A DNA stretch of 40,800 nucleotides from Lachnospiraceae bacterium. Its GTDB lineage: Bacteria > Bacillota > Clostridia > Lachnospirales > Lachnospiraceae. Below the pieces are notes generated by a model. It did no database searches, was not told the origin of the DNA, and saw nothing but the letters and a program-made list of their open reading frames with translations. The position numbers and the translations under genes are program-made. This document shows, one piece after another, positions 21,551-40,641 of this stretch; positions within the stretch are counted from its first letter, which is position 1; every line of letters begins with the position of its first letter. The stretch covers positions 1 to 40,800 of the forward strand of contig JAGAQI010000101.1 of assembly GCA_017622795.1 (NCBI GenBank), in the 5' to 3' direction.

Positions 21551-21572
21551 AATCTTCACCACCTTTATTTAT

Positions 21573-22929: not shown

Positions 22930-22962
22930 ACGTAGATTCTCCTCAATTCATAAATTGTCTAT

Positions 22963-22971
22963 AGTATATCA
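22963..22971 (-). promoter_or_regulatory. Extended -10 promoter before the secreted GH5 gene
   Basis: TGATATACT on the minus strand, 34 bp before the start codon, with only a poor -35. It lies between the CE2 stop codon and the GH5 gene and is the same motif seen before the AraC gene at 12237. Confidence 0.5.
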
Positions 22972-23005
22972 CATCCCTAAGCTAAAAGATACCTTTTTCT
23001 TTTTT

Positions 23006-24061: not shown

Positions 24062-24072
24062 ATCATAACCTC

Positions 24073-25197
24073 CTATCTGGAACCGATAACCGATACTAAA
24101 TAAAACGGTACCATGGATTCGTCGCCTTCCGTAACAGTAATTTCCACGGTGTGCTTTTTATCTTCGATATGCTTTGCTACGGTTGTTATGTATAAGCAGT
24201 CGCCCCAGGTTTCATCAAAGTTACCGTCCAGCGTCATGGCAGAAGCCTCGTCACCATCCAATACCACCTTTGCTACACAGGCCGGATGCTTCACCGATTT
24301 ACGGTACTGTACCGCAATACCGGTTCCTTCTATTTCGAAACAGATGGCATCGCCCTTCTTTGCCCCGATAAAGCCGCGGCGGAAGGTTTCGGTAATGTGC
24401 TTCTGTTCCTGTGTATCTGCCACAAAACCTTTCAATTCCGGTTTGCAATTGTAAGTCTGATAACGGACCGAATTCTGGTATGCATTGGCAGTAATTGGCT
24501 TTGGAAGCTCTTCTGCCGCACGGTTTGTATCCGTAACTGCGGGTACATCTTCCTGCTGCACTTTTGCAAGGAAGTTGGTAATCAGATTGGAAAGCAACGC
24601 ATGACCGGCATCATTTGGATGTAAATCATCCGGTGTTACGTCGCGTACCCCGATTTTTCCGTGGGCAATTGCCTGATACACACTGGTTTTCATGCTTAAG
24701 CACGGCAGATTATAGTAACGTCCCACTGTTTCATGCTGGTCCTGCGCATTTCTTCCGTCTTCATAAAAAATATTGTGGACCAGAAGTACTGCCGGTGCTG
24801 TCTTAGAGGTATATACCTTACGTACCAGTCCCTCGTAGGTTTCCCGGAAAAACAGACTGTTATCATCGTTTACACTGAATTCTATTACCACAAAATCCGG
24901 CTCATATGCCAGAATATCACTGTCTGCACGGGCTGCACCAAACTGGGAGGTAGTACCGCCGATACCGCCGTTTACATAAGTGATTTCTGTTTGCGGATAC
25001 TGCTCACGCCACCATTTGGTCGTCAAGGCAGCGTAGCAGGTATCCGGCGTGGAGGACAGGGAACCCTGGGTGATGGAACCGCCAAGATATCCCAATGTGA
25101 TCGGATTTCCGTTCTCTGCTTTCTTTAATACTTTTGCAATACGCTCTGTGTTGCCGTGAAATGCTATACCATCATTAAAATTTACTAACTGTTTCAT
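24073..25197 (-). CDS. CE17-like SGNH acetyl esterase, cytosolic, 374 aa
   Basis: SGNH domain (about 15-215) plus a C-terminal beta-sandwich domain (about 240-374) as in CE17. The catalytic blocks are complete: LGGSITQGS (Ser41), Gly78 and Gly80-81 in NGGIGGT, FSVND (Asn110) and PDDLHPNDAGH (Asp190, His193). Unlike the two paralogues at 6516 and 9286 it has no signal peptide, so it would deacetylate imported manno-oligosaccharides in the cytosol. It starts two bases after the stop codon of the GH5 gene, so translation is coupled, and 11 bp separate it from CE2. CE17 membership is by domain order and context. Confidence 0.88.
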   Translation of the reverse strand: MKQLVNFNDGIAFHGNTERIAKVLKKAENGNPITLGYLGGSITQGSLSSTPDTCYAALTTKWWREQYPQTEITYVNGGIGGTTSQFGAARADSDILAYEPDFVVIEFSVNDDNSLFFRETYEGLVRKVYTSKTAPAVLLVHNIFYEDGRNAQDQHETVGRYYNLPCLSMKTSVYQAIAHGKIGVRDVTPDDLHPNDAGHALLSNLITNFLAKVQQEDVPAVTDTNRAAEELPKPITANAYQNSVRYQTYNCKPELKGFVADTQEQKHITETFRRGFIGAKKGDAICFEIEGTGIAVQYRKSVKHPACVAKVVLDGDEASAMTLDGNFDETWGDCLYITTVAKHIEDKKHTVEITVTEGDESMVPFYLVSVIGSR

Positions 25198-25198
25198 T

Positions 25199-26236
25199 TT
25201 ATTGTAATCCCTTTCTGATTCCTTCTAAAAGTAACGGGAAATTCCATTCCAGTGTTCTCCGGTCTATCAAGCCAAAGAGCTCACCGCGGCCTTCCACATA
25301 ACCATTGTCCCACCAGACACAAGGCACTCCGATGGACTTGGTTTTTCCAAAAAAATACTCAGCCCATTCTGCGCGGGAGGCTTCATTTCCTTCGTCCTTC
25401 TTATGCATGGCACCACATTCTCCGATGATTACCGGAACCCCCTTGGATAAAAACAGGTCCTGTAAGTCAACGACCAATTGGTCAATTACCTTGGTATCCC
25501 TGTTCCACAGAGCCCGACCTTCTACCGTCAGGGCGAAGTCGGTTGGCTCATAGGCATGTACCGATGCGATGATATGATTGTCGCCCTTCGGAATTTCCAG
25601 ATGACGGATGCCTACGGTACAGTTTGCTGCATAGCCCGGAATCATCAGGCTGCGGATGGCATTGTTTCCTCCGGTACCGCGGACTGTTTCTACAAACACC
25701 TTGTTTAAAGCATTTACCACAGCCCGGCCTTCTTCATCACCGCCGGTCCATTCCACCGGTGTGCCACGTTTTCTCGGCTCATTCATTCCCTCAAAAATCA
25801 GGTGTTCATCGTATGCTTCAAAACGCTCGGCGATTTGCTGCCAAACCTTTTTCAGCTGTTCGGAAGCCGGTGTCAGATTGTCATAATACGGGTCATGCCA
25901 GCCCTCATGGTGTATATTTAAAATCACAAAGGCACCCTTGTGATATGCCCAGTCCACCAGCTCCTGCACCCGGTCCATCCATTTAGTGTCTATCGTATAA
26001 TCCGGGGCTTCCCCTAAGTGATTTCTCCAGCTGACCGGATAGCGGATTACATTAAAGCCCTCGTCAATTATTTTCTCAATTAATGCTTTGGAAGTTACCG
26101 GATTCCCCCAGGCGGTTTCCCAGGCTGCCGGCTCCATCGTTTTATCAATTCTGTCATTTACGGAATCCATGGTGTTTCCCAGATTCCATCCGAGTTTCAT
26201 TTCTTTTACCAGTTCTTTTGCGGATATTGTTCTCAT
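25199..26236 (-). CDS. Cytosolic GH5 (subfamily 4-like) glycosidase, 345 aa
   Basis: A GH5 barrel close in sequence to the secreted enzyme at 21745, with EMKLGWNLGNTMDS, acid/base Glu153 (FEGMNEPRKRG) and nucleophile Glu273 (IIGECGAMH). It lacks a signal peptide. The start at 26236 is chosen because GAGGAAC lies before it; an upstream ATG at 26302 would read through the terminator hairpin. A cytosolic endo-type enzyme would shorten imported long oligosaccharides. It lies behind a terminator-like hairpin, and no clear promoter is seen in the 107 bp after GH130, so it is probably read through from there. The nucleophile Glu is followed by Cys instead of the Phe in its paralogue. Confidence 0.9.
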   Translation of the reverse strand: MRTISAKELVKEMKLGWNLGNTMDSVNDRIDKTMEPAAWETAWGNPVTSKALIEKIIDEGFNVIRYPVSWRNHLGEAPDYTIDTKWMDRVQELVDWAYHKGAFVILNIHHEGWHDPYYDNLTPASEQLKKVWQQIAERFEAYDEHLIFEGMNEPRKRGTPVEWTGGDEEGRAVVNALNKVFVETVRGTGGNNAIRSLMIPGYAANCTVGIRHLEIPKGDNHIIASVHAYEPTDFALTVEGRALWNRDTKVIDQLVVDLQDLFLSKGVPVIIGECGAMHKKDEGNEASRAEWAEYFFGKTKSIGVPCVWWDNGYVEGRGELFGLIDRRTLEWNFPLLLEGIRKGLQ

Positions 26237-26279
26237 TCTTTGTTCCTCAGGGCTTTTGCCCTCGAATACTCGTTTTACT

Positions 26280-26318
26280 AAAAAGCCGCAGGGCAGGCGC
26301 AAACACCCGCCTTGCGGC
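26280..26318 (-). terminator. Terminator-like hairpin after GH130
   Basis: On the minus strand GCCGCAAGGCGGG (26318-26306) pairs with GCCTGCCCTGCGGC (26298-26285), with one mismatch and one wobble, followed by TTTTT. It lies 24 bp after the GH130 stop codon and 44 bp before the GH5 start, with no obvious promoter between, so it may attenuate rather than end transcription. Confidence 0.7.
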
Positions 26319-26342
26319 TTTCTATGGATAATTGTGATTAGA

Positions 26343-27365
26343 TTATCTTCTTCCTAAATCGGTATCATCCCATCTGGTTACGCTGTGCTTCTTGATGTAA
26401 TCAACGATTTCATCAAACTGACAGAACGCAAGGCCGACATAGCTGTCTGCCGCACCATAGTAGATAGCGATTCTTCCTGTGTCAGGATCATGAAGAGTTG
26501 CACATGGGAAGCATACGTTCGGAACGAAGCCTCTCTCTTCATACCACTCTTCCGGTGTGAGAAGGAAGGTCTCACAACGGTATAATACCTTAGACGGATC
26601 CTCTAAGTCTAAAATTGCACCACCGATGGAATATACGTAACCGTTACAGGTTCCGCTTACACCGTGATAGAACATTAACCAGCCTTCGGAAGTCTCGATA
26701 GGAGCTGCACCGCCACCAATCTTTAAGGACTCCCACCACTCACTGCTGCGGCCCATTACATGTCTGTGCTTGCCCCAGTACTTGAGGTCAGGGCTTTCGC
26801 TTAGGAAAATGTCACCGAATGGTGTGTGACCGGAATCGGATGGTCTGCTTAACATTACGTAGTTGCCATTAATCTTTCTAGGGAAAAGAACTGCGTTACG
26901 GTTGAATGGCAGGAATGGATTTTCCAGACGGGTAAATGTCTTGAAATCTGTTGTCTTTGCCAGACCGATTGCAGCGCCGTAGAAATCCTGACACCACATG
27001 ATGTAATAAGTATCCTCCACCTTTACCAGTCTTGGGTCATATGCGTAAATAGGCTGGAACGGATTACCGTCTTCGTCTACGAACTGAATCTTGTTTGGTT
27101 CGAATTCCCAATGGATAGCATCCTTACTGTGTCCGAGATAAATATGGGAAACACCGTCGGTCTGCTCACCACGGAATACACCGATGAATTCATCACCGTA
27201 AGGCATAACCGCACTGTTGAAAATACGTGCAACACCTTCTACCGGATTTCTGCCGATAATCGGGTTTTCTGTATATCTCCAAACCGGTGCGTTCTTTAAG
27301 CCTGCCGGCTTCTCCTGCCAAGGTACTTTATGGAATTCAGGAGCAATCATCTTAATATCACTCAT
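26343..27365 (-). CDS. GH130 beta-mannoside phosphorylase, 340 aa
   Basis: Cytosolic phosphorylase that splits a beta-mannosyl bond with phosphate and releases mannose 1-phosphate. The five-bladed propeller fold of GH130 is shown by ENPIIGRNPVEGVARIFNSA, the catalytic Asp110 (YAYDPRL) and probable phosphate-binding residues Arg156 and Asn157 (FNRNAVLFP), Lys215 (SLKIGGGA) and His234 (FYHG). The length of 340 suggests the manno-oligosaccharide phosphorylase group (GH130_2) more than the longer mannosyl-glucose phosphorylases (GH130_1), but this is not certain. GAGGACC precedes the start. It is downstream of the solute-binding protein and two structured elements, and fits degradation of mannan imported by the ABC system. 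Confidence 0.92.
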   Translation of the reverse strand: MSDIKMIAPEFHKVPWQEKPAGLKNAPVWRYTENPIIGRNPVEGVARIFNSAVMPYGDEFIGVFRGEQTDGVSHIYLGHSKDAIHWEFEPNKIQFVDEDGNPFQPIYAYDPRLVKVEDTYYIMWCQDFYGAAIGLAKTTDFKTFTRLENPFLPFNRNAVLFPRKINGNYVMLSRPSDSGHTPFGDIFLSESPDLKYWGKHRHVMGRSSEWWESLKIGGGAAPIETSEGWLMFYHGVSGTCNGYVYSIGGAILDLEDPSKVLYRCETFLLTPEEWYEERGFVPNVCFPCATLHDPDTGRIAIYYGAADSYVGLAFCQFDEIVDYIKKHSVTRWDDTDLGRR

Positions 27366-27654: not shown

Positions 27655-29178
27655 TTAGTTGCCAAAGTAACTGTCTAACGCATCCTGAACCTGCTGCTTG
27701 TAAGTTTCCTGATACTGAGCAGGAGTCATAGTACCGTTGATGATGGAGTTAAGATCATAACCAACACCGATAGCCTGGAATAAGTCGAAGGTTGTTCTTG
27801 TACCCATGTACTGCATTACGTTGAAGTTTTCTTCCTGTAATTCAGGCTCGAAAGCATTTTCCTGATACCACCAGTTGAGAGCGGACTTATCATCACGAAG
27901 AGATGTGTCGCCATCCATCCAGTTCCAGAAATCATACATTACGTTAAATACCTTTTCAGGCTCCTGAACACCTGCAGGAATAATGAATGCGCCGGATGGA
28001 ACATCATTTTCATGAGCGTTGGTTTCCTGATTACCGGATGGACCAACAGGCCATGGGCAGTATACGGTATCCCATGTAAGGTTTGTTTCAGGGCTTGCTG
28101 CGGAGTAGTCACCGTTAGCGTTCTGAATCCATACAGCGATTGGGAAGAAACCTGCATTACCTTCACGGTAACCGTTTCTCATGGAGTTCCATGGTTCACC
28201 TTCGAAGTCGTATGGAGGACATACGTTGTAAGTTACCCACATATCCTGAATCATCTGAAGAGTTTCACCAACTGCCTTGGAGGACATGCCTTCGGTTGTA
28301 CCCTTAGCGATGTTACCACCATTGGAGAGCATTAACTGTGTGAAGGTTTCTTCTACGTAACCAACGAAACCGAACTGGTCGTTCTGACCGTCACCATCAG
28401 TATCCTGAGTAAGAACCTGACAGTATTCGATGAACTTATCCCAAGTCCATTCGCCACGCTCATAAAGAGCTCTTGGATCTTCTAAGTTGTTGTCTTCTAA
28501 CATCTGCTTGTTGTAAGCTAAAGGATAGGTATTAGCAACAGCACTTTCACCTGTTACCTGGTAGAAGATACAAGCCTTACCGTCACCTAAGTCATAGTAA
28601 CCGGCAATCTTCTGCTCTGTAAAGATGTCGTGGTCAGCAGGAAGAATTGTCTTTAAGTCAATTGCAAGACCGTTAACCTGTGCAGGAACTGCCATACCGG
28701 CATCTACAAGGTAAATATCACAGTCAGGAGCACCTGCAAGGATGGAGGTGTTGATGGAGTCTGTAACACCTTCGTATGTAAGGTTTTCCCACCAGAACTT
28801 TACGCCGTACTTTTCTTCAATCTTCTTAACATTATCCCACTTTAACTGTGCGATATTTCTGTTCTTAGCCTTTGTTTCCTTTGCAGCTTCGTCATCTTCC
28901 GGAGCTTCCTGAGCGCTTACCCAGTCAGGGGAAACAGCCATATCACCGTCTGCTACGTGATTACTGTCATAGTACTGTACCCACCAGGAACCGATAACGA
29001 TTTCTTCATTCTTGCCGGTTGGAGTGGATGGTGTAGATGGCTTATCTGTGCCTTCTGTGCCGCTTGTTGCACCTGTGGTAGGTGTTGGATCATCTGTGCT
29101 GGTCTTATCGCCACAAGCAGCCATGGAGAAAGTTAATGCAGCTGCAAGAACTACAGCCATTACTTTTCTGAATTTCAT
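27655..29178 (-). CDS. Sugar ABC transporter solute-binding lipoprotein, 507 aa
   Basis: Captures oligosaccharides outside the cell and hands them to the permeases. Lipobox MAAC (Cys22) is followed by a Thr/Gly/Pro-rich linker to about residue 55, then a family-1 extracellular solute-binding fold (VIGSWWVQYYDSN, then NVKKIEEKYGVKFWW). Asp-rich and Trp-rich segments such as QDTDGDGQNDQFGFVG and NWWYQENAF are common in oligosaccharide binders. The start is preceded by AAGGAGG. It is separated from the multi-module lipoprotein gene by 98 bp with a stable hairpin. Mannan or glucan oligosaccharides are the likely ligand, because GH130 follows; this is inferred. Confidence 0.93.
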   Translation of the reverse strand: MKFRKVMAVVLAAALTFSMAACGDKTSTDDPTPTTGATSGTEGTDKPSTPSTPTGKNEEIVIGSWWVQYYDSNHVADGDMAVSPDWVSAQEAPEDDEAAKETKAKNRNIAQLKWDNVKKIEEKYGVKFWWENLTYEGVTDSINTSILAGAPDCDIYLVDAGMAVPAQVNGLAIDLKTILPADHDIFTEQKIAGYYDLGDGKACIFYQVTGESAVANTYPLAYNKQMLEDNNLEDPRALYERGEWTWDKFIEYCQVLTQDTDGDGQNDQFGFVGYVEETFTQLMLSNGGNIAKGTTEGMSSKAVGETLQMIQDMWVTYNVCPPYDFEGEPWNSMRNGYREGNAGFFPIAVWIQNANGDYSAASPETNLTWDTVYCPWPVGPSGNQETNAHENDVPSGAFIIPAGVQEPEKVFNVMYDFWNWMDGDTSLRDDKSALNWWYQENAFEPELQEENFNVMQYMGTRTTFDLFQAIGVGYDLNSIINGTMTPAQYQETYKQQVQDALDSYFGN

Positions 29179-29276: not shown

Positions 29277-32200
29277 TTACTTTACAAAGGTAATGCTCTT
29301 GATTGTGAAAGCTGCATTGTCTACGCATGTCATGAAGTTAATCTGAGCAAGATCCTTGTCTGCAAATTCAGCTAAATCAATATAGATAGCTTCAGTAATT
29401 CCCTGATCCTGTGCAGTGTAGTTATCCTTGAAAGGAGTCTTCTGGCTGTACTGGTTTAATTCTGCATTTGGATCAACCAGCTTGATGTCAAGCTGTACGT
29501 TGGAAGTAACATCAACAATCAGAGTCTTGTATGCTGCTAAATCAACAACTTCAGGAAGAATGTACTGGATTTCCTGATACTGGGAAGCAATAGTAACATC
29601 TACTGCATCACCGTTAACGGCAGCTTCGTAACCGTAACCGCCTGCTGTAAGATCAGCAAACTTGATTACTAAATCTTCTGCAGGAGCTTCTGCTGCTGCA
29701 CCGCCATCGGTGTAAACTTCCCAAGTAATGGTGTATTCAACGCCGTCACCCTTGGAGAGTGCTAAACAAACTACAGGATCTTCTGCCTTTTCCTTTACAA
29801 AGTTGATAGCCTTTGCAACATATGTGCTGCTGCTGTCGAACTGATCCCATGCTCCTGTTTCTACGTTAGTGTAACCAAGAACAAAGTTAGTATCAGGACA
29901 GGTAAACTTAATACCCTTAACTACTGCAGGATCTAAATCGCCAATTAAGTCAGCCTGATAAAGATTCATCTGTGTCCACCAAGTAGAGTCAGCAAATGTT
30001 AAGCTGTTTGTGAAAGCTACAGTACCTTCAATCGTATCGTTTGTTGGGTCGATAACCGGTTCTGCAGGCTCTTCAGGAACAATGATATCTGTGCTGCCGC
30101 CGGTGTAAACTTCCCAGTTGATGGTGTATTCTACGCCGTCACCCTTGGAGAGTGCTAAAACTGCTAATGTCTGGCCTTCTTCTTTGTTGAAGTCCATTGT
30201 CTTTACAACGTAAGTGTTGCTGGAATCGAACTGAGCCCAGTCAGCCTTAACGGTATCGGTATAACCGAGAACGAATGTTGTATCACTTGTAAACTTGATT
30301 GCTGTAATTGTTGCAGGATCTACATCACCGATTACTTCAGGAGTAAGAAGATCCTTCTGTGTCCACCAAGCAGAGTCTGCCATGGTGAGTGTACCTGTAT
30401 GAGCTACAGTACCGTCTGCCACCTGGATAGTTGGGTCCGGAGCATCCTTCTTTTCTTCAGCTTCACCGGCTGCTGCGATGAGACCCTGACCTACACGGAT
30501 GCCGAATACTTCCCAGTTAGTAACTGCTTCGAACTGCATTCTTGCGCCCCATGTGGACTTATCTTCGCCACATACTGCTGCAATCTGCTCATAGGTAATG
30601 TATGCCTTACCGTCTGCGATAGATGCTGTACCCTGAGCACATCTGGACCAGCCTGCTGCTGCATCAGGCATTACAATCCACATGGAATTGTCTTCACTCT
30701 GGAAGGAAATTTCAATAACTGCACCAGGAACTAACTTATCGATGAGTTCCTGTGGCATTTCTGCACCGTTCTGTCCCCAGCCGGTACCGGAACATGCAAA
30801 ACCGTCAAATGCGGTTAAACCACTGATAACCGGATACTTCACTGCTGTACCAACTTCGATACCGTAAACTTCCCAGTTGGTAACTGCTTCAAACTGCATT
30901 CTTGCGCCCCATGTGGACTTATCTTCGCCACATACTGCTGCAATCTGCTCATATGTAATATATGCTGTGGAACCGTCGCAAACTGCGGTACCCTGAGCAC
31001 ATCTGGACCAGCCTGCTGCTGCATCAGGCATTACGATCCACATAGAACCGTCTTCACTGGTGTAAGAAATCTTAACAACGGAACCAGGAACTAATGCATC
31101 GATGAGTTCCTGTGGCATTTCTGCACCGTTCTGTCCCCAACCGGAACCGGAACATGCGAAACCGTCAAATGCTACTGCATTGGCAACGCCGATTCTCTCT
31201 GTTGCAGTACCAACCTTGATGCCGTATACTTCCCAGTTAGTCTGTGCTTCGAACTGCATTCTTGCACCCCAGGTAGCCTTATCTTCACCAAGAGCTGCTG
31301 CTAACTGCTCATATGTAATCTGTGCAGTTGTTGCGGAATTGTTGATATAAGCTGCACCCTGAGCTACTCTGGTCCAACCTACGGTAGCATCAGGCATTAC
31401 GATCCACATGGAACCGTCTTCACTGGTATAAGAAATTTCAACTACAGAACCAGGAACTAATGCGTCGATGAGTTCCTGTGGCATTTCTGCACCGTTCTGT
31501 CCCCAACCGGAACCGGAACATGCAAAGCCGTCAAATGCTACTGCGCCGCCTACTGCATACAGGTTGGAAAGGTCAGGACCGTCGCCGCCGGAGAAGCCTG
31601 CAGGCTCGTTGAATGCTACTGTGGTATCTGCTGTAAGAACGTTACCTGCTGCATCCATGAAAGTAATGTCATCAATGTAAAGAGTTGCAGGAGCACCTGT
31701 TTCATCCTTACCGTTATCTGTCTTTAAGTTAATGAGTAAGATATTGGTTGCATCAGCAATCAGTTCATTGCCTGCTGCAACAGTACCTGTAACAACCTTT
31801 GGATTCTTCTTTTCCATGTATACGGACCAGTTACCTAAGTTACCTTCTGCAAGGTCTGTACCGAACCAGGAAAGAATCTGACCGGAAGTTGCGTAAAATT
31901 CGCCGTCATCACGGGAAGTACCAACTACCATGTCTACACTTGCAAGCTTCGCTACGTTTGCGCCGAGAAGGCTGGAAACGTCAATTGCAAGCCAAGGTGT
32001 CTTACCATTTGTGTTTACTACCTTTAATGCTTTGCTTCCGTTGTAATCAACGATGGAAAGCTCAAGGTTTGCGGATGTAGCATGCTGCATATAAGGTGCT
32101 ACGAATCCCATGTTACCGTCTTCGAATGTAACGGATGCACCTGCAATTGTTACATTCTGTGGTGCCGGAACCGGTGTTGCTGTTGGGTCAGCCGGTGCCT

Positions 32201-32324
32201 CTGTTGGTGCTGTTGTCGGCGCTGTTGTTGGTGTTACGTCATTGCCGGTCTGCTCCCCACATGCGACCATGGACAATGTCATGACAGCTGCCATTACTAC
32301 TGCGAAAAATTTTGTTTTTTTCAC
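29277..32324 (-). CDS. Seven-module polysaccharide-binding surface lipoprotein, 1015 aa
   Basis: No catalytic domain is visible. The chain has a lipobox (MVAC, Cys22), a Thr/Pro/Ala linker (about 30-56), a first beta-sandwich module (57-240), three near-identical repeats (261-373, 383-493, 503-613: AFDGFACSGSGWGQNGAEMP ... MWIVMPDA ... TWGARMQFEAVTNWEVYGI), two copies of a second repeat (637-742, 766-872: SAWWTQKDLL ... VEYTINWEVYTGG) and a last beta-sandwich (884-1015). The aromatic-rich repeats resemble carbohydrate-binding modules of ruminal Clostridia. The start codon is GTG, with AGGAGG at good spacing. It lies between the permeases and the solute-binding protein, so it may deliver polysaccharide to them, much as SusE/F do in Bacteroides. 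Function is inferred. Confidence 0.9.
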   Translation of the reverse strand: MKKTKFFAVVMAAVMTLSMVACGEQTGNDVTPTTAPTTAPTEAPADPTATPVPAPQNVTIAGASVTFEDGNMGFVAPYMQHATSANLELSIVDYNGSKALKVVNTNGKTPWLAIDVSSLLGANVAKLASVDMVVGTSRDDGEFYATSGQILSWFGTDLAEGNLGNWSVYMEKKNPKVVTGTVAAGNELIADATNILLINLKTDNGKDETGAPATLYIDDITFMDAAGNVLTADTTVAFNEPAGFSGGDGPDLSNLYAVGGAVAFDGFACSGSGWGQNGAEMPQELIDALVPGSVVEISYTSEDGSMWIVMPDATVGWTRVAQGAAYINNSATTAQITYEQLAAALGEDKATWGARMQFEAQTNWEVYGIKVGTATERIGVANAVAFDGFACSGSGWGQNGAEMPQELIDALVPGSVVKISYTSEDGSMWIVMPDAAAGWSRCAQGTAVCDGSTAYITYEQIAAVCGEDKSTWGARMQFEAVTNWEVYGIEVGTAVKYPVISGLTAFDGFACSGTGWGQNGAEMPQELIDKLVPGAVIEISFQSEDNSMWIVMPDAAAGWSRCAQGTASIADGKAYITYEQIAAVCGEDKSTWGARMQFEAVTNWEVFGIRVGQGLIAAAGEAEEKKDAPDPTIQVADGTVAHTGTLTMADSAWWTQKDLLTPEVIGDVDPATITAIKFTSDTTFVLGYTDTVKADWAQFDSSNTYVVKTMDFNKEEGQTLAVLALSKGDGVEYTINWEVYTGGSTDIIVPEEPAEPVIDPTNDTIEGTVAFTNSLTFADSTWWTQMNLYQADLIGDLDPAVVKGIKFTCPDTNFVLGYTNVETGAWDQFDSSSTYVAKAINFVKEKAEDPVVCLALSKGDGVEYTITWEVYTDGGAAAEAPAEDLVIKFADLTAGGYGYEAAVNGDAVDVTIASQYQEIQYILPEVVDLAAYKTLIVDVTSNVQLDIKLVDPNAELNQYSQKTPFKDNYTAQDQGITEAIYIDLAEFADKDLAQINFMTCVDNAAFTIKSITFVK

Positions 32325-32397: not shown

Positions 32398-33372
32398 CTA
32401 ACCTACTATACCACTACGCTCAACACCTTCTATAAAATACCTCTGGAGCAGCAGGTAGATAAGAATAATCGGTAAGAGAACCAGAATGATACCCGCATGC
32501 AGGTACAGCTCCTGCAGGGTGACATTCAAAATCTTGTCTTCGTTTGCAATAACCGAAGCCAGGGTAGATATCTTCTTACTGATTACGATATCCGGGCTGA
32601 CCAGAAATAAATTCGAAAAGAATGAATCATTGAACTGCCATACCAGGGAAAATACGGTTACCGTAATTACCGCAGGTGATGCGTTCTTTAACATAATGTT
32701 AAAATAAGTATACCACATTCCGGCGCCATCTACAAATGCTGCTTCTTCAATTTCTTTCGGAAGTCCTCTAAAGAACTGGTTAAAGATGTAGATATATAAA
32801 CCGGACCGGACACCGCATCCTAACAAGGACATGATGTACATCGGCCATGGCGTACCCATCAGGTTAATTGGCCCTCCTTTAATTGCCGTAATAATGCTTA
32901 ACGGGTCAAAATTTCGGAAGGTTACGTATAACGGAAGCTTGATGGTGTAGGTTGGAATAACAATCATTACTACCACTAAACCGAATAACAGCTTCTTGAA
33001 CGGGAACTCAAATCTGGCAAATCCATAGCCTACCATGGAACAGACAAGAACCTGAATCAGGGTAAGTGTCAGTACATATAATACATTTTTTGTAATGGTT
33101 GGCCAGTAATCCATTCGAAGCATTACCAGTTTATATCTCTCCAGTGTAGGATACTGCGGAAAAATAAATACCATTGGATTGTAAGCATCCTTGTCACCGG
33201 AAATAGAATTTACTACCATACCAATTACCGGAGAGAGAATAACGTAACATACGCCGACAATAATTGCAATCTGCAATATGGTCAGGGCAAATTTCTTAAT
33301 ATCATTACCTAAAAGCATTCTCTGATACGGATCCTGAAATGCTTTTTTGATTCTGCCTTTTTTCATGCTCAT
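32398..33372 (-). CDS. Sugar ABC transporter permease, MalG-type, 324 aa
   Basis: An integral membrane protein with about six transmembrane helices (first about 30-50, ILQIAIIVGVCYVILSPVIG). The EAA loop EEAAFVDGAGMWYTYFNIML (about 218-237) touches the ATPase. It pairs with the permease at 33386 (13 bp upstream gene) and the solute-binding protein at 27655. Ribosome-binding site AAAGGAG. No ATPase gene is in the window, so it probably shares a MsmX-like ATPase coded elsewhere. Confidence 0.94.
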   Translation of the reverse strand: MSMKKGRIKKAFQDPYQRMLLGNDIKKFALTILQIAIIVGVCYVILSPVIGMVVNSISGDKDAYNPMVFIFPQYPTLERYKLVMLRMDYWPTITKNVLYVLTLTLIQVLVCSMVGYGFARFEFPFKKLLFGLVVVMIVIPTYTIKLPLYVTFRNFDPLSIITAIKGGPINLMGTPWPMYIMSLLGCGVRSGLYIYIFNQFFRGLPKEIEEAAFVDGAGMWYTYFNIMLKNASPAVITVTVFSLVWQFNDSFFSNLFLVSPDIVISKKISTLASVIANEDKILNVTLQELYLHAGIILVLLPIILIYLLLQRYFIEGVERSGIVG

Positions 33373-33385: not shown

Positions 33386-34312
33386 TTAGTTATAGTAGAA
33401 GGTTCGTTTTTGTATGAAGCCTACCACAACAACCAGTATGATACAGGTCACAATGGTGCTGACTAAGCTGAATACGGAACCTAGACCGTAATTCCACATA
33501 TCGAAGGTTGTGGTATCGGCCAGCTTTAAGATTTCACTCTGTTCAAAGCTGTCCACGATGGTATATACCACGTTGGTAATGATATGAGGCATTACCATTG
33601 GGAAGGTAATCTTCCAGAAGGTTTCATAGCCGGTAGCGCCTTCAATCTTTGCTACCTCGTAAAGGGAGCTAGGAATAGACTGCAGTGCCGCAATAAACAG
33701 GACAATCTGCACACCGGACATGGAAATAATATCGTTGATTCTGCCTACCGCCGAAGTGATATAATCCAACAGCTTCGCCGGAAGACCCAGGTTCATGAAC
33801 ATACTGATTAAGTAGTCGATGTCAAATGCAATTGCCGAAGACGCACTGGCCTCCATTTCCTGCATCTGACCGGACACACCGCCCTGCATCATCATTTCAC
33901 CCATGGCAATGGCATCTACCACGGCACCGGAGGCTAAAATAACCGGCAGGAAGAAGATGGCACGGACAATGGCTCTGCCCGGGAATTTTTTGTTTAAGAT
34001 CATCGCCATGAACAAGCTGAAGAAGGTAATTAACGGAACATCCACCAGCATGTTCATAACGGAAGAGGTCAAGGTCTGCTTAAAGCTTCCGTGTTCCAGG
34101 AATGCATACCGGAAGTTTTCCCAGCCAATCGGAGTCAGGGTATAACCGCCGTTAATGGCATCCATGGACATTTCCGAGAAGGAAAACTGCACCGTCTGGA
34201 AAATGGATCTTATGTAAAATACAAGGAAACCTACTAACCAAGGCAGGATGAACAGATATCCTGCAAACATACGCTTACGCATCAGGGACAATCTTTTCTT
34301 TTTCTTTTTCAT
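33386..34312 (-). CDS. Sugar ABC transporter permease, MalF-type, 308 aa
   Basis: Integral membrane permease with about six helices (first about 13-35: MFAGYLFILPWLVGFLVFYI). The EAA loop is SLYEVAKIEGATGYETFWKI (about 216-235). A Met/Ser-rich insertion (about 135-165, MGEMMMQGGVSGQMQEMEAS) lies before the middle helices and is unusual for this family. Its ATG follows the stop codon of the DUF5696-type gene directly (TAAATG), and its ribosome-binding site lies inside that gene, so the two are translationally coupled. Confidence 0.94.
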   Translation of the reverse strand: MKKKKKRLSLMRKRMFAGYLFILPWLVGFLVFYIRSIFQTVQFSFSEMSMDAINGGYTLTPIGWENFRYAFLEHGSFKQTLTSSVMNMLVDVPLITFFSLFMAMILNKKFPGRAIVRAIFFLPVILASGAVVDAIAMGEMMMQGGVSGQMQEMEASASSAIAFDIDYLISMFMNLGLPAKLLDYITSAVGRINDIISMSGVQIVLFIAALQSIPSSLYEVAKIEGATGYETFWKITFPMVMPHIITNVVYTIVDSFEQSEILKLADTTTFDMWNYGLGSVFSLVSTIVTCIILVVVVGFIQKRTFYYN

Positions 34313-36667
34313 TTAGATTCCCTCCATTTCGTAAGACATTGCAGGAACGGTCTTGCCATCCATGCTTTCTGCTTCATCACTGTAGTTGATATAAATCGTT
34401 ACACCGTTGGAGTAAGAAATCTTTCTTACATCTCCTTCGATTTCATGTCCTACGATTTGTGCACCGCTTACATACTGCAGAGCCTCATTTACACGGTTAT
34501 AAATGTCAACCGCTTCGCCCTTCCATACATCGTAAGTAGTTGCGTAGAACTGATTCATACCGGTGTTCTTCATGCGACTGGACGCCTCTTTGGTAAATAC
34601 ATAATGCGGAGCGGAGCCGGTCTCAATCATCTGAAGCACGGAAAGTGTCATATTCTCGGAGTCGTCATAGTTTAACAGCTCTGTAGAGTAGTTTACACAT
34701 CCGTGAAGAATCATCTGATAAAGCGGAATGTTATCGTCCACAATCGGGTAAGTATTATCACTCATAGGAACGTTGGTCACATGATTGGTATAGCCAAAAG
34801 CGTACGCATTGGCATCATTTAATAAGAGCTTCTTTCCGGTAGTTTCTAATAAATCAAGCTGTGCCAGAACAATCTCCAGCGCTTCTTCTCTGTTAATTAC
34901 TTCCGTACGCTTCTTATCGGATGTTAAATAACATCCCAAATCACGTAAGGATACTCCGGAAATATCATAATTATCAATCTTCTTTGCAAACTTTTCCACA
35001 TATCTCGGCAGGAACTTTGGAGACATTAAGTCGTACTGAGGTTCCATATAACCAAGACCGGAGGTGTTTCGAAGAGTGGTCGGATTTACCAGACCGAAGC
35101 TTGCCACATAACCTGCACCGTAGTAGCGGGAGCCTTCTGCACTCCAGTTATATCCGGTGTCTGCAAAGGTAACTCTCTGGAATTCCACATCGGCATACAT
35201 GGTGCCACCGATACTCTGAAGTGTGTCATCCAAAGCTTCCAGTTCTGACTTAGAGCCCATCTCCCTTACCAGACGGATGTCATGCGGAGCATCGTGGTAA
35301 TAGCCTTCGTTGAACCAGCCCTGTAAGGTTAAAATCTGATTATTGATACCGTTTGCCGCAAATTCCTGTGCCATCTCCTCAATTTCTTCATAGGTGGTCA
35401 TGGCAAAGGTATCCAGACGCTGAACGCCTAAGAAGTGGGAATTTTCCTTTACACCGCCGATAACATCGTAGTAAAAAGGAATATCGCCGCTTTCTGTCAT
35501 CGGAACTAAAGTTCCGTCAGCAATCAGCTTTTCTCTGTAATAGTTGGCAATTCCCGCATAACCGGTATAGTCTTCATTTAAGAAGGTATAACGCACGGAG
35601 GCGTTCATGTCGTATAATTTATCCTCTAATACGAAAACGTCCTGAGAGGAATTACCAAAGTTACGGAGATTATCTACGTTACGGAACACAAAGGTTGCGT
35701 AAGCATAGTTATAATCGTTGTACTTTCCGGAGATTTCTGCGGAAATCATGGATGTGGTTACACCACCTTCAATTTCTGCTAAAAGGCTTCTGTTTTCCCG
35801 GCAGATACCAAAAATCGGAAGTCTTACTCCGTCTAAGTTTTCTGTTGTGGTATAGTTTGCTGTCATCGGATCCATTTCGTACACATACTGGGAATAGGTA
35901 TTGGATGTCAGCTTCCCGTTATTAAAGTTGATAATGGAGCCGGAGCCGTTCGGAACAACCAAGTAGCCGTTTTCCGCTTTGTTACCGGCACCCATGTAAC
36001 GGAGCAGCTGGATACGGTAAAGACTGCCGCCGTTTTCTTTAATTCCCTTGGAAGGAATGGAGACTACCACGCTGTCGTTGTCTAAACGATATTCCAACGG
36101 AATTTCGAAGTAAATCGGAATTGCCTCACCCTTTGCGGTGGTGGAACCTACGGTATACAGAAAACGGATACCGTTTTCAATGGATTCTACCGCTAACTGG
36201 TTTTTCTCAACACACTGTGTGAAAGTATCCAATGTACCGGATTTCACATCTGCATTGTAGTAATACACCATCATCTGGGATTTCAGGTAATTCTTGTTTG
36301 CTTTATTTGCTTTTTCATCCTCATCGGCATTCAACGGATTGGTTGTTGTGATGCTGCCGTCTCTCTTGTCATAAACAGCCACATAGCCGTTAGAGGTATT
36401 GGCATAAAGCTTTAACTTGTCATTCTCTGCCACCAGATCGAAACCGTCCAGTTTTTTATCGGAATCGGCCAGTGCCTTATAAGCAGTTCCGGTTTCATAC
36501 TCATAATCGGTTAAGAAATCTTCGTAACGGTCATAGCCTACAAAGTAGGTGAAGTAGTAAATCAGATATACCGCAAGTGCAGCTGCCGCTACGCTAAGCA
36601 AAGTAATAACAATCTTTTTTGTCAGGCTCATAGGGAGCTTTACTTTTTCTTTTTTTGCTTTTTTCAT
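34313..36667 (-). CDS. DUF5696-like membrane-anchored protein, possibly glycosidase-like, 784 aa
   Basis: One N-terminal transmembrane helix (about 18-40, KIVITLLSVAAAALAVYLIY) after a Lys-rich start holds a large outer domain. Residues about 60-380 are beta-rich. Residues about 400-700 look like a TIM-barrel: LQGWFNEGYYHDAPHDIRLV, MYADVEFQRVTF, ISGVSLRDLGCYL and LLLNDANAYAFGY, each strand ending in acidic residues, as in glycoside hydrolases of the GH36/GH101 kind. I recognise it as DUF5696-type but cannot place a reaction. It sits between YIP1 and a permease gene and is translationally coupled to the latter. It may process the transported glycan or form part of a surface complex. Confidence 0.8.
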   Translation of the reverse strand: MKKAKKEKVKLPMSLTKKIVITLLSVAAAALAVYLIYYFTYFVGYDRYEDFLTDYEYETGTAYKALADSDKKLDGFDLVAENDKLKLYANTSNGYVAVYDKRDGSITTTNPLNADEDEKANKANKNYLKSQMMVYYYNADVKSGTLDTFTQCVEKNQLAVESIENGIRFLYTVGSTTAKGEAIPIYFEIPLEYRLDNDSVVVSIPSKGIKENGGSLYRIQLLRYMGAGNKAENGYLVVPNGSGSIINFNNGKLTSNTYSQYVYEMDPMTANYTTTENLDGVRLPIFGICRENRSLLAEIEGGVTTSMISAEISGKYNDYNYAYATFVFRNVDNLRNFGNSSQDVFVLEDKLYDMNASVRYTFLNEDYTGYAGIANYYREKLIADGTLVPMTESGDIPFYYDVIGGVKENSHFLGVQRLDTFAMTTYEEIEEMAQEFAANGINNQILTLQGWFNEGYYHDAPHDIRLVREMGSKSELEALDDTLQSIGGTMYADVEFQRVTFADTGYNWSAEGSRYYGAGYVASFGLVNPTTLRNTSGLGYMEPQYDLMSPKFLPRYVEKFAKKIDNYDISGVSLRDLGCYLTSDKKRTEVINREEALEIVLAQLDLLETTGKKLLLNDANAYAFGYTNHVTNVPMSDNTYPIVDDNIPLYQMILHGCVNYSTELLNYDDSENMTLSVLQMIETGSAPHYVFTKEASSRMKNTGMNQFYATTYDVWKGEAVDIYNRVNEALQYVSGAQIVGHEIEGDVRKISYSNGVTIYINYSDEAESMDGKTVPAMSYEMEGI

Positions 36668-36680
36668 TGCACGCTACCCC

Positions 36681-37313
36681 CTATACCCTGAATATCAGCT
36701 CTGTGTAAATGCTGTGGAAGAAGTTATAAACCATACCCAGCAGGTTGCTGAGTAACAACAGCAGGAACACAATAATCAGAGCTGCTACGAATGTAAGTAA
36801 TAATGTTAACAGGGTTTTACCCAGAGTGTAGTTATGTACCTGCATAATGCCTACCAGCATCATGATAACACCGTATGCTATACCTACACCGATTAAAATA
36901 CCGTAAAACGCCTGCTCGTCGTCTGCAATCACCTGGCTGATGATGGTGGAAAGCACCATAACCAGGGTCATTGGTACCGTACCGTAACCGACAGCAATGG
37001 CAATATCCTTTAAACGGCCTTCCCCGTTCATTAAACAGGTAATAGACCAGTTGCTGACACAAAGCAGCAGATAGAAGGATAAGACGCCCAAAAGCTCAAA
37101 CAACAAATCAACGCCTCTTGGGTCCAAATCATTTACAACAAAGCTTGCCATCAGACGGTTTGCCGTAAAGCTGAAGGAGAAAAGAATTACCATCAGGATA
37201 GCGAGAGGTACACTGCCATAGTCGCGATGACGAATCCAATAATATCCGTCCATCGGGTGGGTAATGGTGTAAAACATATAAGACCATTTTTCTTTGGAGA
37301 AATATTTACCCAT
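36681..37313 (-). CDS. YIP1-family integral membrane protein, 210 aa
   Basis: A Yip1-type membrane protein with about five hydrophobic helices (VPLAILMVILFSFSFTANRL, LLFELLGVLSFYLLLCVSNW, VPMTLVMVLSTIISQVI, then two more). The N-terminal TITHPMDGYYWIRHRDYGSV is typical of bacterial YIP1 proteins. Their role in bacteria is unknown. The start codon overlaps the stop of the NHL gene (TAATG), and the DUF5696-type gene follows 13 bp later, so the three are coupled. It may be the membrane hub of the cassette. Confidence 0.85.
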   Translation of the reverse strand: MGKYFSKEKWSYMFYTITHPMDGYYWIRHRDYGSVPLAILMVILFSFSFTANRLMASFVVNDLDPRGVDLLFELLGVLSFYLLLCVSNWSITCLMNGEGRLKDIAIAVGYGTVPMTLVMVLSTIISQVIADDEQAFYGILIGVGIAYGVIMMLVGIMQVHNYTLGKTLLTLLLTFVAALIIVFLLLLLSNLLGMVYNFFHSIYTELIFRV

Positions 37314-38794
37314 TAGTCATCCTCTCCTTTCTTTTTCTTCTTATAAGCTTTAAAGCCAAACCAAGCCACTGCCAGAACCATGATACCGGTTAAAATCCAG
37401 CTTAAGTTTTCGGTCAGCACCTGATTACGGAAACGCTTGAAGGCAATGGAATAATAATCTCTTGCCATACCGATTTCTAAGTAATGCATGGCCTTTTCGT
37501 AATCGCCGGCAGTGAGATATGCCTTACCGATACCGGTGTTTGCAAGCTCATTATTTTCATCTAACTCCAGTACTCTTTCCCAAATAGCTACTGCCTCTGC
37601 TTCATCACCATCGTAACGGAGAGAAACTGCCTCGTTAATGAGTCGTCCGTATTCCGTTTCCTCAAAGCAGATGATGTTTGCCTTGGTAGCATCCAGTACT
37701 GCAATTTTTCCGCCGATATCTTCTACTGCCGCAGCCAGGGTAAAGGTACCTTCCTGGGTTCCAAGGCCGCCGAAGATATAAAGCAGATTTCCTTCGTGGT
37801 CATAAGTGAAAATACGGCCACGCTTTCTGTCAAGACAGGAATAAATACCGTTGTCTCTGTAAACAACGTCGGTAAACTGGGAAGCACCGGAGTAATCGCT
37901 GGTGCCGTCAATCAGCAGGTCGCCGCCTACATTGGCATTAGCGCCCTTTTTGATTACGTCCTCACCTCTAGGGTTCAGTCTTCTTACGCCCTGAACACCG
38001 GTGGCGTCAATATTGGAGGCATATACAAAGCCCTCCGGATCGATATCGATACCGGTAAACTCGGTTGGAATGAACAGCTGCTGGTTGGCACGCTCTTCCT
38101 TGGTGGCAAGACGTTTCCAGAACTTATCCCAGGCAGAAATTTCTACGTTAATGGTTCCGAAGAAGTTTGTAAACTGACCGTTGCTTTCAAATACCATGAT
38201 ACCTTCGAACATGTTCTGTGCGATAACGTATACACGGTCTGCATAGTCTACGGTAACCTTCATCGGGCTGAATACGAAGCCATCGTCCAAGCTTTCGGAC
38301 TGCGGATTTTCAATAATCTGCATTACGTTTTCGTTTTCATCTAATACAACAACTCGCTTGTTTTTCATGTCTGCCACGTATAACCAGCCACGCTCGGAAA
38401 CGCAGACACCGTACGGAGAATTAAACTTATCTTCCTCGCCGTTGTTGTTAAAGGTAGTAATTACTTTTTTAACATTTTTCATTGCGTTATCCAGGATAAC
38501 AATACGGTTGTTACCGGTATCTGCAATGTAAATATCTCCGTTTTCTGCCAGACACATATCCTGCGGTGTTTTAAATGCACCAAGAGCTTCCCCGTTGTAG
38601 GTGAAGTCCAGACCGGATACGGTGCGGGACGGAATGTACGGAGCCGGAGTATAATGGATATACTCTCTGTAGTCATAATTGTAAGAATCGTATGGCAGTT
38701 CGTCTGCCATAGCGGTTATACCCTCTGTTGTCAAAAGAACAATCAGTGTCAGACAAAGAGAGATAACTGCTTTGAATTTCGTAAGTTTTCTCAT
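37313..38794 (-). CDS. Extracellular NHL-propeller / TPR protein with C-terminal membrane anchor, 493 aa
   Basis: A signal peptide (cut near AMA-DE, residue 30) leads to NHL/beta-propeller repeats (about 60-390: FKTPQDMCLAENGDIYIADT, FNSPYGVCVSERGWLYVADM). A TPR pair follows (about 395-460: AVAIWERVLELDENNELANT, KAYLTAGDYEKAMHYLEIG), then one transmembrane helix (about 465-485) and a KKKKKGEDD tail inside. So the propeller faces out and may bind glycan or protein. AGGAGGG precedes the start. It is coupled to YIP1 downstream and lies 16 bp after a permease gene. The function is unknown; a scaffold or sensor is likely. Confidence 0.87.
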   Translation of the reverse strand: MRKLTKFKAVISLCLTLIVLLTTEGITAMADELPYDSYNYDYREYIHYTPAPYIPSRTVSGLDFTYNGEALGAFKTPQDMCLAENGDIYIADTGNNRIVILDNAMKNVKKVITTFNNNGEEDKFNSPYGVCVSERGWLYVADMKNKRVVVLDENENVMQIIENPQSESLDDGFVFSPMKVTVDYADRVYVIAQNMFEGIMVFESNGQFTNFFGTINVEISAWDKFWKRLATKEERANQQLFIPTEFTGIDIDPEGFVYASNIDATGVQGVRRLNPRGEDVIKKGANANVGGDLLIDGTSDYSGASQFTDVVYRDNGIYSCLDRKRGRIFTYDHEGNLLYIFGGLGTQEGTFTLAAAVEDIGGKIAVLDATKANIICFEETEYGRLINEAVSLRYDGDEAEAVAIWERVLELDENNELANTGIGKAYLTAGDYEKAMHYLEIGMARDYYSIAFKRFRNQVLTENLSWILTGIMVLAVAWFGFKAYKKKKKGEDD

Positions 38795-38809: not shown

Positions 38810-39697
38810 TTATTCTTTCATACCGGATGATGTCATGGTTTCTAAGACGTTACTCTGACAGATCAGGAAGAAGGTAATCGGCACTGCCGCAATAATAAAG
38901 GTTACGGCTGCACCGGCACCGGCTCTTGCTGCGCCGCCGGCGGAAATCTGATACAACGCATACTGTAACGGCTTTAACTGCTCATCACGAAGGAAGGTAC
39001 CACCGGTGTTACCCCACATCTGCTGGAACTGGAAGATAGCCAGTGTTAACCACGCCGGTTTAACGTTTGGCATTACAATGCTCCAGAAGATTCTGAATTC
39101 GCCGGCACCATCCAGTCTTGCGGATTCCATTAAGGAGTCCGGAAGCTGTTCCATGAACTGCTTCATGAGGTAGAGACCCATACCGAAAGCACAGGCCGGA
39201 AGGATAAGTGCCCAGTAGCTGTTGTTAATTCCCATCCAGGAAATAATCATGTACTGCGGTGTCTGGGTTACGGTCCAGGAGAACATCATGGACAGCTCTA
39301 CCAAAAGGAACAAAATCTTCTTTCCCGGGAAGTTATGCTTTGCCAGCGGATATGCCGCCAGGGAAGCAATAATTACGTGGCCTACCATACCACCGCCGGT
39401 AATAATAATAGTATTTAACATGTATCTGGAGAACGGTACCCAGGTATCATTCATGAGAATGAATAAGTCTGAGAAGTTTTCCAGGGTAGGGTTGCGGACA
39501 AAAATCTTTGGTGGGAACTGGAATAATTCATCCAGTGGCTTTAACGCATTGTTAATAACCATAACAAGCGGAAGCGCCATTGCCACACCGCAAATACCCA
39601 TGAGTACAAACAACAGGGTATTCCCCGCCATAGAGCGGTTTAATTTCTTTTCTCTCTTATAGGAGTGTTTGCGTCTTCTTTTTACTTTTTCAGCCAT
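38810..39697 (-). CDS. Sugar ABC transporter permease, MalG-type, 295 aa
   Basis: Membrane permease with about six helices (first about 25-48, GNTLLFVLMGICGVAMALPL) after a basic N-terminus. The EAA loop is LMESARLDGAGEFRIFWSIV (about 190-209). Its start overlaps the stop codon of the partner permease (TAATG). Together with 39697-40641 and the solute-binding protein at the window's right edge it forms the first of two importers here. Confidence 0.94.
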   Translation of the reverse strand: MAEKVKRRRKHSYKREKKLNRSMAGNTLLFVLMGICGVAMALPLVMVINNALKPLDELFQFPPKIFVRNPTLENFSDLFILMNDTWVPFSRYMLNTIIITGGGMVGHVIIASLAAYPLAKHNFPGKKILFLLVELSMMFSWTVTQTPQYMIISWMGINNSYWALILPACAFGMGLYLMKQFMEQLPDSLMESARLDGAGEFRIFWSIVMPNVKPAWLTLAIFQFQQMWGNTGGTFLRDEQLKPLQYALYQISAGGAARAGAGAAVTFIIAAVPITFFLICQSNVLETMTSSGMKE

Positions 39698-40641
39698 TAT
39701 TCGCCAACCCTCCTTAACAGTTTCTGAATTAACTGGTTACTGCCCACCATGAGCAGGAACAAGATAGTTGCGATTGCGGATGCATAGCCCATTTCGAGAC
39801 GAACGGTACCATAGTCCAGCAAGTGGGTAACTACGGTTGCACCGGCATAGTTTACGGATGGGTTACCTGCTAAGTTCAGGGATACATCGGCAATTGCGAA
39901 AGATGATGTAATCTGCATGACGGCACCGAATCTTAACTGCGGCTTCATTGCAGGCAGAGTTACGTACCATAATTCCTGCCAACGGTTTTTAACGCCGTCC
40001 AGGGCAGCTGCTTCGTACATGCTCTTGTCTACGGTCTGAAGACCTGCGATGAAGGACAGGAAGCCGGTACCCAGGGACAGCCACAGCTGAACCACAATCA
40101 AGAACGGAAGGACATATTTTTCTGTCTGCATCCACTGCACTGCTTCATCCAAAATTCCAAGCTTTAACAGGATACCGTTTAAATAACCGTAACGGTCACC
40201 GGTAAGAATCAGGTTCCATACCATATATGCGTTACCACAAATGGACGGCGCATAGAAGATAAGTGTAAGGAATGCTCTGAGCTTACCCTTGAACTCATTG
40301 ATAATCCAAGCGAAGAGGAGACACAGCATATAGCTGACCGGACCTGTGATAACCGCTAAGATTAAGGTGTTCTTTAAGGACTTCATGAAAATGTCGTCCT
40401 CAAGGAACAGTTTGATATAGTTTTTCCAACCTACAAAAGTAGGCATTTCCAACATGTTGTAGTATGTAAAACTGAATCCGACCGCCATTACTACCGGAAG
40501 CACCGTAAAGAAGAAGAACAGAATGAAATACGGAGCTATCATAAAGTAAGACGCTTTGGATCTTTTAATCTGATACCACAGCTTACCCTGCTTCTTGGCA
40601 ACTTCCAAAGCATGCTCGGATCTGTCGTTTGTATCTGCCAT
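39697..40641 (-). CDS. Sugar ABC transporter permease, MalF-type, 314 aa
   Basis: Membrane permease with about six helices (first about 34-57, FMIAPYFILFFFFTVLPVVM). The EAA loop is MYEAAALDGVKNRWQELWYV (about 213-232). AAAGGAG is nine bases before the start. It follows the solute-binding protein gene by 16 bp and is coupled to the next permease. Confidence 0.94.
   Translation of the reverse strand: MADTNDRSEHALEVAKKQGKLWYQIKRSKASYFMIAPYFILFFFFTVLPVVMAVGFSFTYYNMLEMPTFVGWKNYIKLFLEDDIFMKSLKNTLILAVITGPVSYMLCLLFAWIINEFKGKLRAFLTLIFYAPSICGNAYMVWNLILTGDRYGYLNGILLKLGILDEAVQWMQTEKYVLPFLIVVQLWLSLGTGFLSFIAGLQTVDKSMYEAAALDGVKNRWQELWYVTLPAMKPQLRFGAVMQITSSFAIADVSLNLAGNPSVNYAGATVVTHLLDYGTVRLEMGYASAIATILFLLMVGSNQLIQKLLRRVGE

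Follow-up and report, generated by a model that had tools for sequence, protein, structure and literature searches.

An eight-gene module around DUF5696

Why do three genes coding for an NHL propeller protein with tetratricopeptide repeats (TPR), a YIP1 protein and a DUF5696 protein lie tightly packed between two pairs of ATP-binding cassette (ABC) permeases in a Lachnospiraceae bacterium? The stretch of DNA that raises this question (the window, 40,800 nucleotides) is the entire contig C69 of a 3.23-Mb genome, which is 87% complete; the closest named relatives of the window are Lachnospiraceae metagenome-assembled genomes. The initial annotation saw a cassette of three genes enclosed by two sugar importers. 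Open reading frames (ORFs) and Pfam matches place MalF/MalG-type permease pairs on both sides of the three genes, so the flanking position stands, but mere enclosure does not, since the importers and a binding protein belong to the module themselves. Eight genes, in the order SBPL-PermA1-PermB1-NHL-YIP1-DUF5696-PermA2-PermB2, very probably form one functional unit.

All seven module genes carried by the window lie on the minus strand at the positions first assigned to them (Table 1). The tight coupling noted for the three central genes is borne out by the window coordinates: 1-base overlaps join PermA1 to PermB1 and NHL to YIP1, PermB1 is separated from NHL by 15 bp, gaps of 13 bp follow YIP1 and PermA2, and DUF5696 is coupled directly to a permease, with 0 bp before PermA2. 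Pfam matches of the window proteins had E-values of 3e-13 for NHL, 6e-13 for Yip1 and 9e-184 for DUF5696. The Yip1 family (PF04893) scored 49.4 bits against a curated cut-off of 28.6, BPD_transp_1 was above cut-off in all four permeases, and TPR matches were near the cut-offs. According to simple hydropathy, the NHL protein has an N-terminal (signal-like) and a C-terminal hydrophobic segment, YIP1 has five hydrophobic segments and DUF5696 has one N-terminal anchor. These profiles agree with the earlier description of a propeller with TPRs and a C-terminal anchor beside a five-helix YIP1 protein.

The eighth gene, SBPL, is cut by the window edge and was absent from the initial annotation. In relatives it is an ORF of ~990 aa upstream of PermA1. 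A sugar-binding domain (SBP_bac_1/8), for which the best solved relative is 5ysb (Lin1841, E 1e-12), makes up its C-terminal ~400 residues, and its N-terminal ~560 residues contain weak CBM35-, golvesin- and GH115_C-like stretches together with a repeated motif visible in the alignment consensus. A single N-terminal hydrophobic segment was found by hydropathy in 67 of 82 complete SBPL proteins, and a loose pattern found a lipobox-like motif in five of the 82. Contig C87 ends in SBPL, and its end has 124 identical bases in common with window positions 40677-40800; C87 and the window are probably neighbors in the genome.

Conservation of gene order

We compared 115 loci: 100 regions surrounding DUF5696 matches, each at most 20 kb long (47 from a family sample and 53 from a phylum sample), 12 loci from named genomes, two paralogous loci of the window's own genome and the window. 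Contigs starting inside DUF5696 (L029 and L030) were excluded, leaving 113 loci. Two of these (L095 and L096) encode a shorter GH129-like relative outside any module, and 111 contain full-length DUF5696. Loci L162, L168 and L169, whose contigs duplicate those of L024, L023 and L022, are outside the 111, and G002:C64, G002:C8, G003:C56, G003:C78, G003:C150 and two G019 fragments are outside the locus set. ORFs were labeled with profiles built on the modules and started at the longest frame, which makes spacing and lipobox figures rough.

The next labeled genes upstream of DUF5696 are NHL and YIP1 in 110 of the 111 loci; the remaining contig (L119) begins inside DUF5696. NHL and YIP1 form one fused ORF in 58 of these 110 loci and separate genes in 52, and two examples of the fused protein showed a run of hydrophobic segments after the propeller part. 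PermA2 is next downstream of DUF5696 in 109 of 111 loci; of the two exceptions, L117 reaches its contig end and L094 has a rotated gene order. The median DUF5696-PermA2 spacing is -4 bp when ORFs start at the longest frame. The canonical order, with NHL and YIP1 either split or fused, is matched exactly in 46 and 32 loci. In six loci NHL+YIP1-DUF5696-PermA2-PermB2 is placed before SBPL-PermA1-PermB1, and in 16 loci it is found alone; three of the 16 are cut at the upstream contig end, and eight lack the first half despite at least 4.6 kb of upstream room. Nine of ten further stretches (L161-L169, three of them repeats of counted contigs) contain all eight genes, and the tenth (L160) has NHL+YIP1-DUF5696 followed by the contig end. 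ORFs of 871 and 821 aa for PermA1 and PermA2 in L149 might be taken for gene fusions; we doubt this and attribute them probably to the longest-ORF rule.

A named plasmid from Butyrivibrio fibrisolvens and another from Paenibacillus cellulosilyticus also encode all eight components. Since the same gene order is conserved in Paenibacillus and in the paralogues of the window's own genome, a chance arrangement is excluded. A cassette whose genes are often found apart from each other and from transporters is not what we see: NHL, YIP1 and DUF5696 stand together beside permeases in every full-length case with DNA on the relevant side. Separately, we note that two scaffolds from human faeces deposited as 'UNVERIFIED: Bacteriophage sp.' (L196, MT835600.1; L197, MT835587.1) carry a complete eight-gene module; they are probably mislabeled bacterial DNA.

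Co-occurrence across genomes

The phylum sample comprised 398 genomes, with at most 2-3 candidates scored per genome. This cap and the strict limits used (E 1e-40 for NHL-YIP1 and 1e-60 for SBPL) make copy numbers and weaker relatives lower bounds. Full-length DUF5696 was found in 37 of the 398 genomes, with two further genomes matching weakly above cut-off, NHL-YIP1 in 38, and SBPL extending beyond a lone solute-binding protein (SBP) domain in 40; five more genomes with the SBP domain only were set aside. All three markers occurred together in 37 genomes, covering 15 family codes, and DUF5696 without the others in none (phi 0.985 and 0.958). Co-occurrence of DUF5696, NHL-YIP1 and SBPL is thus close to all-or-none. 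Matches to PF18952 (43/150 and 39/398) were rejected as a count of modules because shorter GH129-like proteins also pass the Pfam cut-off.

The window's own genome contains exactly three Yip1 genes, one in each of its three modules.

A proposed constant half and variable half

In 76 complete modules, mean identity was highest for PermA1 and PermB1 (0.51 and 0.48), lower for PermA2 and PermB2 (0.38) and lowest for DUF5696 (0.28), and between-module distances were correlated for every component pair (r 0.88-0.96). Where the halves lie apart, SBPL-PermA1-PermB1 triads occur elsewhere in the genome, in stretches of 13-14 kb that do not contain the second half (L174, L176, L179, L180 and L181). Copies of SBPL and DUF5696 were counted in 15 hand-picked genomes, with contig-edge fragments included. 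The numbers were equal in nine of the 15 (3:3 in the window's own genome and 5:5 in G042). DUF5696 outnumbered SBPL in six (SBPL:DUF5696 of 4:10 in G214, 4:10 in G287, 4:8 in G317, 6:11 in G192, 10:20 in G234 and 3:5 in G054); fragments inflate the counts of G287, G192 and G234, that of G054 includes a shorter non-module relative, and the matches in G214 and G317 are all long. The expansion in G234 and G192, with 20 and 11 DUF5696 matches including fragments, is unusual for genomes of 2-3 Mb.

The gradient of conservation, taken with separated halves and the copy excess, fits a constant half combined with a variable half. An excess of the second half over the first in some genomes suggests swappable specificity units. 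A bolder and rather doubtful extension is that SBPL-PermA1-PermB1 works in trans for several NHL-YIP1-DUF5696-PermA2-PermB2 halves that can replace one another, with a dead hydrolase barrel as the glycan receptor. Such a system would be a Gram-positive counterpart of Sus with ECF-like sharing.

The DUF5696 barrel

The single window DUF5696 sequence gave no match in the PDB. A profile of 41 DUF5696 sequences matched 8rzg, 8rzk and 5opq at ~1e-12 and the GH129 structure 5wzn at 6e-9. The shorter relative in L096 matched 5wzn with an E-value of 3e-19, and hhalign aligned module DUF5696 with 12 shorter GH129-like relatives over 489 columns (E 5e-35). Module DUF5696 is thus a distant, degenerate barrel of the GH129/GH101 type. 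A comparison of the outer domain with GH36/GH101 folds had been proposed; profile searches retain the GH129/GH101 kind but not a close GH36 kinship. Close GH36/GH13 kinship was dropped: three weak same-genus matches (L017, L019 and L021; profile columns ~297-423, below cut-off) look GH13-type by eye. T. maritima and L. lactis, which served as controls, also gave weak matches.

Window residue D576 aligns with Asp435 of NagBb and N617 with Glu478, which we take to be the nucleophile and the acid/base, respectively. Of the 111 module proteins, 56 have Asp at position 576 and 53 have no acidic residue there; position 617 is Asp or Glu in 45 and not acidic in 66. Acids occupy both positions in 19 proteins, and the exact Asp576 and Glu617 pair is found in five of the 111, compared with 12 of 12 shorter GH129-like relatives. 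An acidic residue within two positions was found in five of the 53 and 11 of the 66 cases, and alignment shifts therefore explain few of the losses. No barrel column is invariantly acidic in the 111 proteins. Trimming of surface glycans, one of the functions first suggested for the cassette, is not supported, as most members have lost catalytic positions; in the window copy it is the acid/base position that is gone. Excerpts of the NagBb study identify Asp435 as catalytic (PMC5698469).

The shorter GH129-like proteins (L095:8976-10658, L096:8927-10681 and L150-L159, the latter being stretches of only ~3 kb) keep both catalytic residues, and several are above the PF18952 cut-off. Judging by these residues, likely enzymes and the degenerate barrels of the module are grouped together in the DUF5696 family of Pfam.

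A proposed composite importer

The EAA loops, which contact the ATPase, were identified by a regular expression in 91 of 93 PermA1, 87 of 91 PermB1, 108 of 112 PermA2 and 104 of 113 PermB2 proteins. With these loops kept in nearly all permeases, both pairs look energized. There is no ATPase gene within the module; four OB_MalK matches are located elsewhere in the window's own genome, and ugpC lies beside the Paenibacillus plasmid copy. A separate SBP was found near 95 of 113 modules, and among the 18 without one, some have 6-7 kb of flank. In the window, the separate SBP (SBP2) probably serves the second permease pair.

The reading that we favor, with about even credence, is that the module encodes a single glycan importer of composite build in Gram-positive (Bacillota) cells. 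It would have two CUT1-type translocation units, a docking barrel that is mostly non-catalytic, and YIP1 as a scaffold. The conserved half would be SBPL-PermA1-PermB1 and the variable half NHL-YIP1-DUF5696-PermA2-PermB2, which usually has an SBP of its own close by. DUF5696 would be a membrane-anchored barrel that descends from GH129/GH101-type hydrolases, is for the most part no longer catalytic and binds glycan chains instead. Together with the NHL propeller and SBPL it may act as an extracytoplasmic dock, capturing chains and passing oligosaccharides to the translocons, with ATP presumably supplied by shared MalK/MsmX-type ATPases encoded elsewhere. YIP1 may keep the parts together in the membrane, much as YknW, a Yip1 protein of Bacillus, modulates assembly of the YknXYZ ABC exporter according to excerpts of its description (PMC4887032). 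YknW is a precedent for such a scaffold, not proof of it.

Neighboring genes and possible substrates

Downstream of the module, the window encodes a lipoprotein with three CBM65 domains, an SBP, a GH130, two GH5, a GDSL esterase and a CE2 protein. Because of GH130, the two GH5, the esterase and CE2, and because GH26 is found in the relative L028, the window copy may serve beta-mannan-type glycans. The CBM65 lipoprotein has 629 aa in L022 and 1137 aa in L023, and this length variation among close relatives suggests repeat gain and loss. An AAA_14/DUF4143 ATPase is encoded at window positions 20354-21562, between pyruvate kinase and a GH5 of the downstream cluster.

Table 1. Module genes and adjacent features of the window, with positions counted from its first nucleotide
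Feature	Position	Strand	Evidence or remark
PermA1, MalF/UgpA-type permease, first pair	39697..40641	-	ORF and Pfam BPD_transp_1
PermB1, MalG/UgpE-type permease, first pair	38810..39697	-	ORF and Pfam BPD_transp_1
NHL propeller and TPR protein, 493 aa	37313..38794	-	Pfam and hydropathy
YIP1 (PF04893), 210 aa, five-helix membrane protein; fused to NHL in many relatives	36681..37313	-	
DUF5696, 784 aa: N-terminal anchor, N-terminal domain, degenerate GH129-like barrel (D576 kept, N617 at acid/base position)	34313..36667	-	
PermA2, permease, second pair	33386..34312	-	Pfam BPD_transp_1
PermB2, permease, second pair	32398..33372	-	Pfam BPD_transp_1
SBPL, C-terminal 46 codons	40658..40798	-	Rest of gene on contig C87
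Surface lipoprotein with three CBM65 domains; accessory, in some relatives, outside the constant core	29277..32324	-	
SBP2, separate sugar-binding lipoprotein	27655..29178	-	Name taken from relatives
Substrate genes of the window copy: GH130, GH5, GDSL esterase, CE2, GH5	21745..27365	-	

We also sampled 20 other copies, taking one large hand-picked ORF per locus. According to Pfam, 14 of the 20 have a glycan-active or glycan-binding neighbor: two arabinofuranosidases, three GH3, a melibiase, GH35, GH2, GH106, a chondroitinase-B-type lyase, two CBM65 proteins, a lectin-domain protein and a GDSL esterase, the last being included in this count. With neighbors so varied across copies, the module looks generic, its substrate being set by variable parts. 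The module on the Paenibacillus cellulosilyticus plasmid (L195) adjoins ugpC and several LLM-class flavin oxidoreductases, not glycoside hydrolases, hinting at a substrate other than a plain glycan.

Alternative explanations

Several observations weigh against a composite importer. Three genomes (G232, G256 and G306) have SBPL and PermA1 at the ends of 3.1-4.3 kb contigs, and neither DUF5696 nor NHL-YIP1 was found anywhere in their assemblies; SBPL-PermA1-PermB1 may thus occur alone. The halves are non-adjacent in several genomes, and an obligate stoichiometric complex is therefore not required. Correlated distances alone would also be expected from simple operon inheritance. Genome G395 encodes a solitary protein of 284 aa related to the N-terminal half of NHL (L191:7682-8536). 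Its frame is open at the contig end but has a stop codon of its own, and the genes after it, CoA-transferase-like and others (named by eye), are unrelated; this is a true exception for NHL, either a truncated remnant or another protein. Six of the 20 sampled neighbors (L082, L132, L143, L145, L148 and L149) are non-carbohydrate genes or have no match. In DUF5696, the nucleophile-position Asp is kept in about half of the module proteins, as counted above, and acids are frequent at D584 (86/111), D644 (93/111) and E682 (105/111), so that another catalytic set is possible. Excerpts of PMC5698469 describe DagB (5opq) as active with only one of NagBb's two catalytic residues conserved.

The leading alternative is two independent importers with helper proteins, co-regulated in one operon and forming no joint complex. 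Two EAA-bearing permease pairs, with a separate SBP near most modules, could work independently, and the three genomes with contig-end SBPL-PermA1 pieces only would be in line with this. We nevertheless consider this arrangement unlikely, as all three markers are present in 37 of 37 DUF5696 genomes even when the halves are on different contigs, NHL-YIP1 accompanies every full-length DUF5696 that has upstream DNA, and these two are fused in more than half of the loci.

DUF5696 could also be a working glycoside hydrolase whose catalytic residues differ from those of GH129 and which trims oligosaccharides where they enter the importer. Homology of its barrel to active enzymes, the frequent acids at D576, D584 and D644 and the precedent of DagB, as far as it is described in the excerpts, speak for such activity. 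This appears a little less likely still, given the scarcity of the GH129 pair in module proteins against its constancy in the shorter relatives, the position of DUF5696 as the least conserved component and the lack of an invariant acidic barrel column.

It is improbable that NHL-YIP1-DUF5696 is a sensor reporting glycan transport to the cell, in the manner of transporter-coupled signaling: propeller and TPR are binding folds, and the B. fibrisolvens copy has a histidine kinase and a response regulator nearby, but the three window proteins contain no Pfam signaling domain above cut-off. Export or handling of cell-surface glycans instead of nutrient import is very improbable, since the permeases belong to the class of importers that depend on binding proteins, SBPs accompany them and most sampled neighbors are glycan-active or glycan-binding, even though the known Yip1-ABC pair YknWXYZ is, in the excerpts of its description, an exporter and an S-layer-domain protein and a lectin-domain protein are each found beside single copies.

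Comparison with known systems

ABC import of glycans is itself known; the set of constant partners is undescribed in the literature that we found. A literature search found 'DUF5696' in no paper, with subscription papers mostly outside its coverage, and searches for the combination of Yip1, NHL and ABC transporter found no description, which is not proof of absence. A term search of a paper on polysaccharide utilization loci of Roseburia/E. rectale found neither NHL nor Yip1 (PMC5320581). Of the 398 phylum genomes, 37 carry the module, sometimes in several copies and beside differing glycan-degrading genes. If it is one machine, it would represent a glycan uptake route of Bacillota whose parts are now annotated separately, as 'permeases', 'YIP1 family protein' and 'DUF5696'. 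It would also provide a function for DUF5696 and for the module branch of bacterial YIP1, as well as a case of a hydrolase fold turned transporter subunit. The proposal makes the capture of long glycans at a Gram-positive membrane, without an outer membrane, testable.

SusC/SusD of Bacteroidetes couple a surface glycan dock to a transporter within glycan-utilization loci. The module would resemble them in this respect if the composite importer holds, with a different cell envelope and energy source; neither the TonB-dependent porin SusC nor SusD was among the Pfam matches of the module and the scanned window neighbors. In group II ECF transporters, one shared half serves several specificity units. 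The module may follow the same logic of a shared half, but it has no ECF protein families and uses sugar-type permeases with SBPs.

As in YknWXYZ, a Yip1 membrane protein accompanies an ABC transporter. Unlike the module, YknWXYZ is a MacAB-like exporter with its own ATPase, and the excerpts of its description mention no NHL, SBP or DUF5696; conversely, no MacB-like permease with its own ATPase and no membrane fusion protein was among the Pfam matches of the module proteins. DUF5696 resembles GH129 NagBb (5wzn, alpha-N-acetylgalactosaminidase) and DagB (5opq, 3,6-anhydro-D-galactosidase) in profile over the N-terminal part and the barrel, and differs from both in being mostly N-terminally anchored, co-encoded with importers and mostly without the catalytic pair. 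In transport, the module resembles CUT1 importers of the MalEFGK2 and UgpBAEC type, with which it shares the permease family, EAA loops and SBPs; MalK/MsmX-type ATPases encoded elsewhere in the genome may energize it. Unlike these importers, the module locks two permease pairs together with an NHL protein, YIP1, a degenerate hydrolase barrel and a long SBP with an extra N-terminal part.

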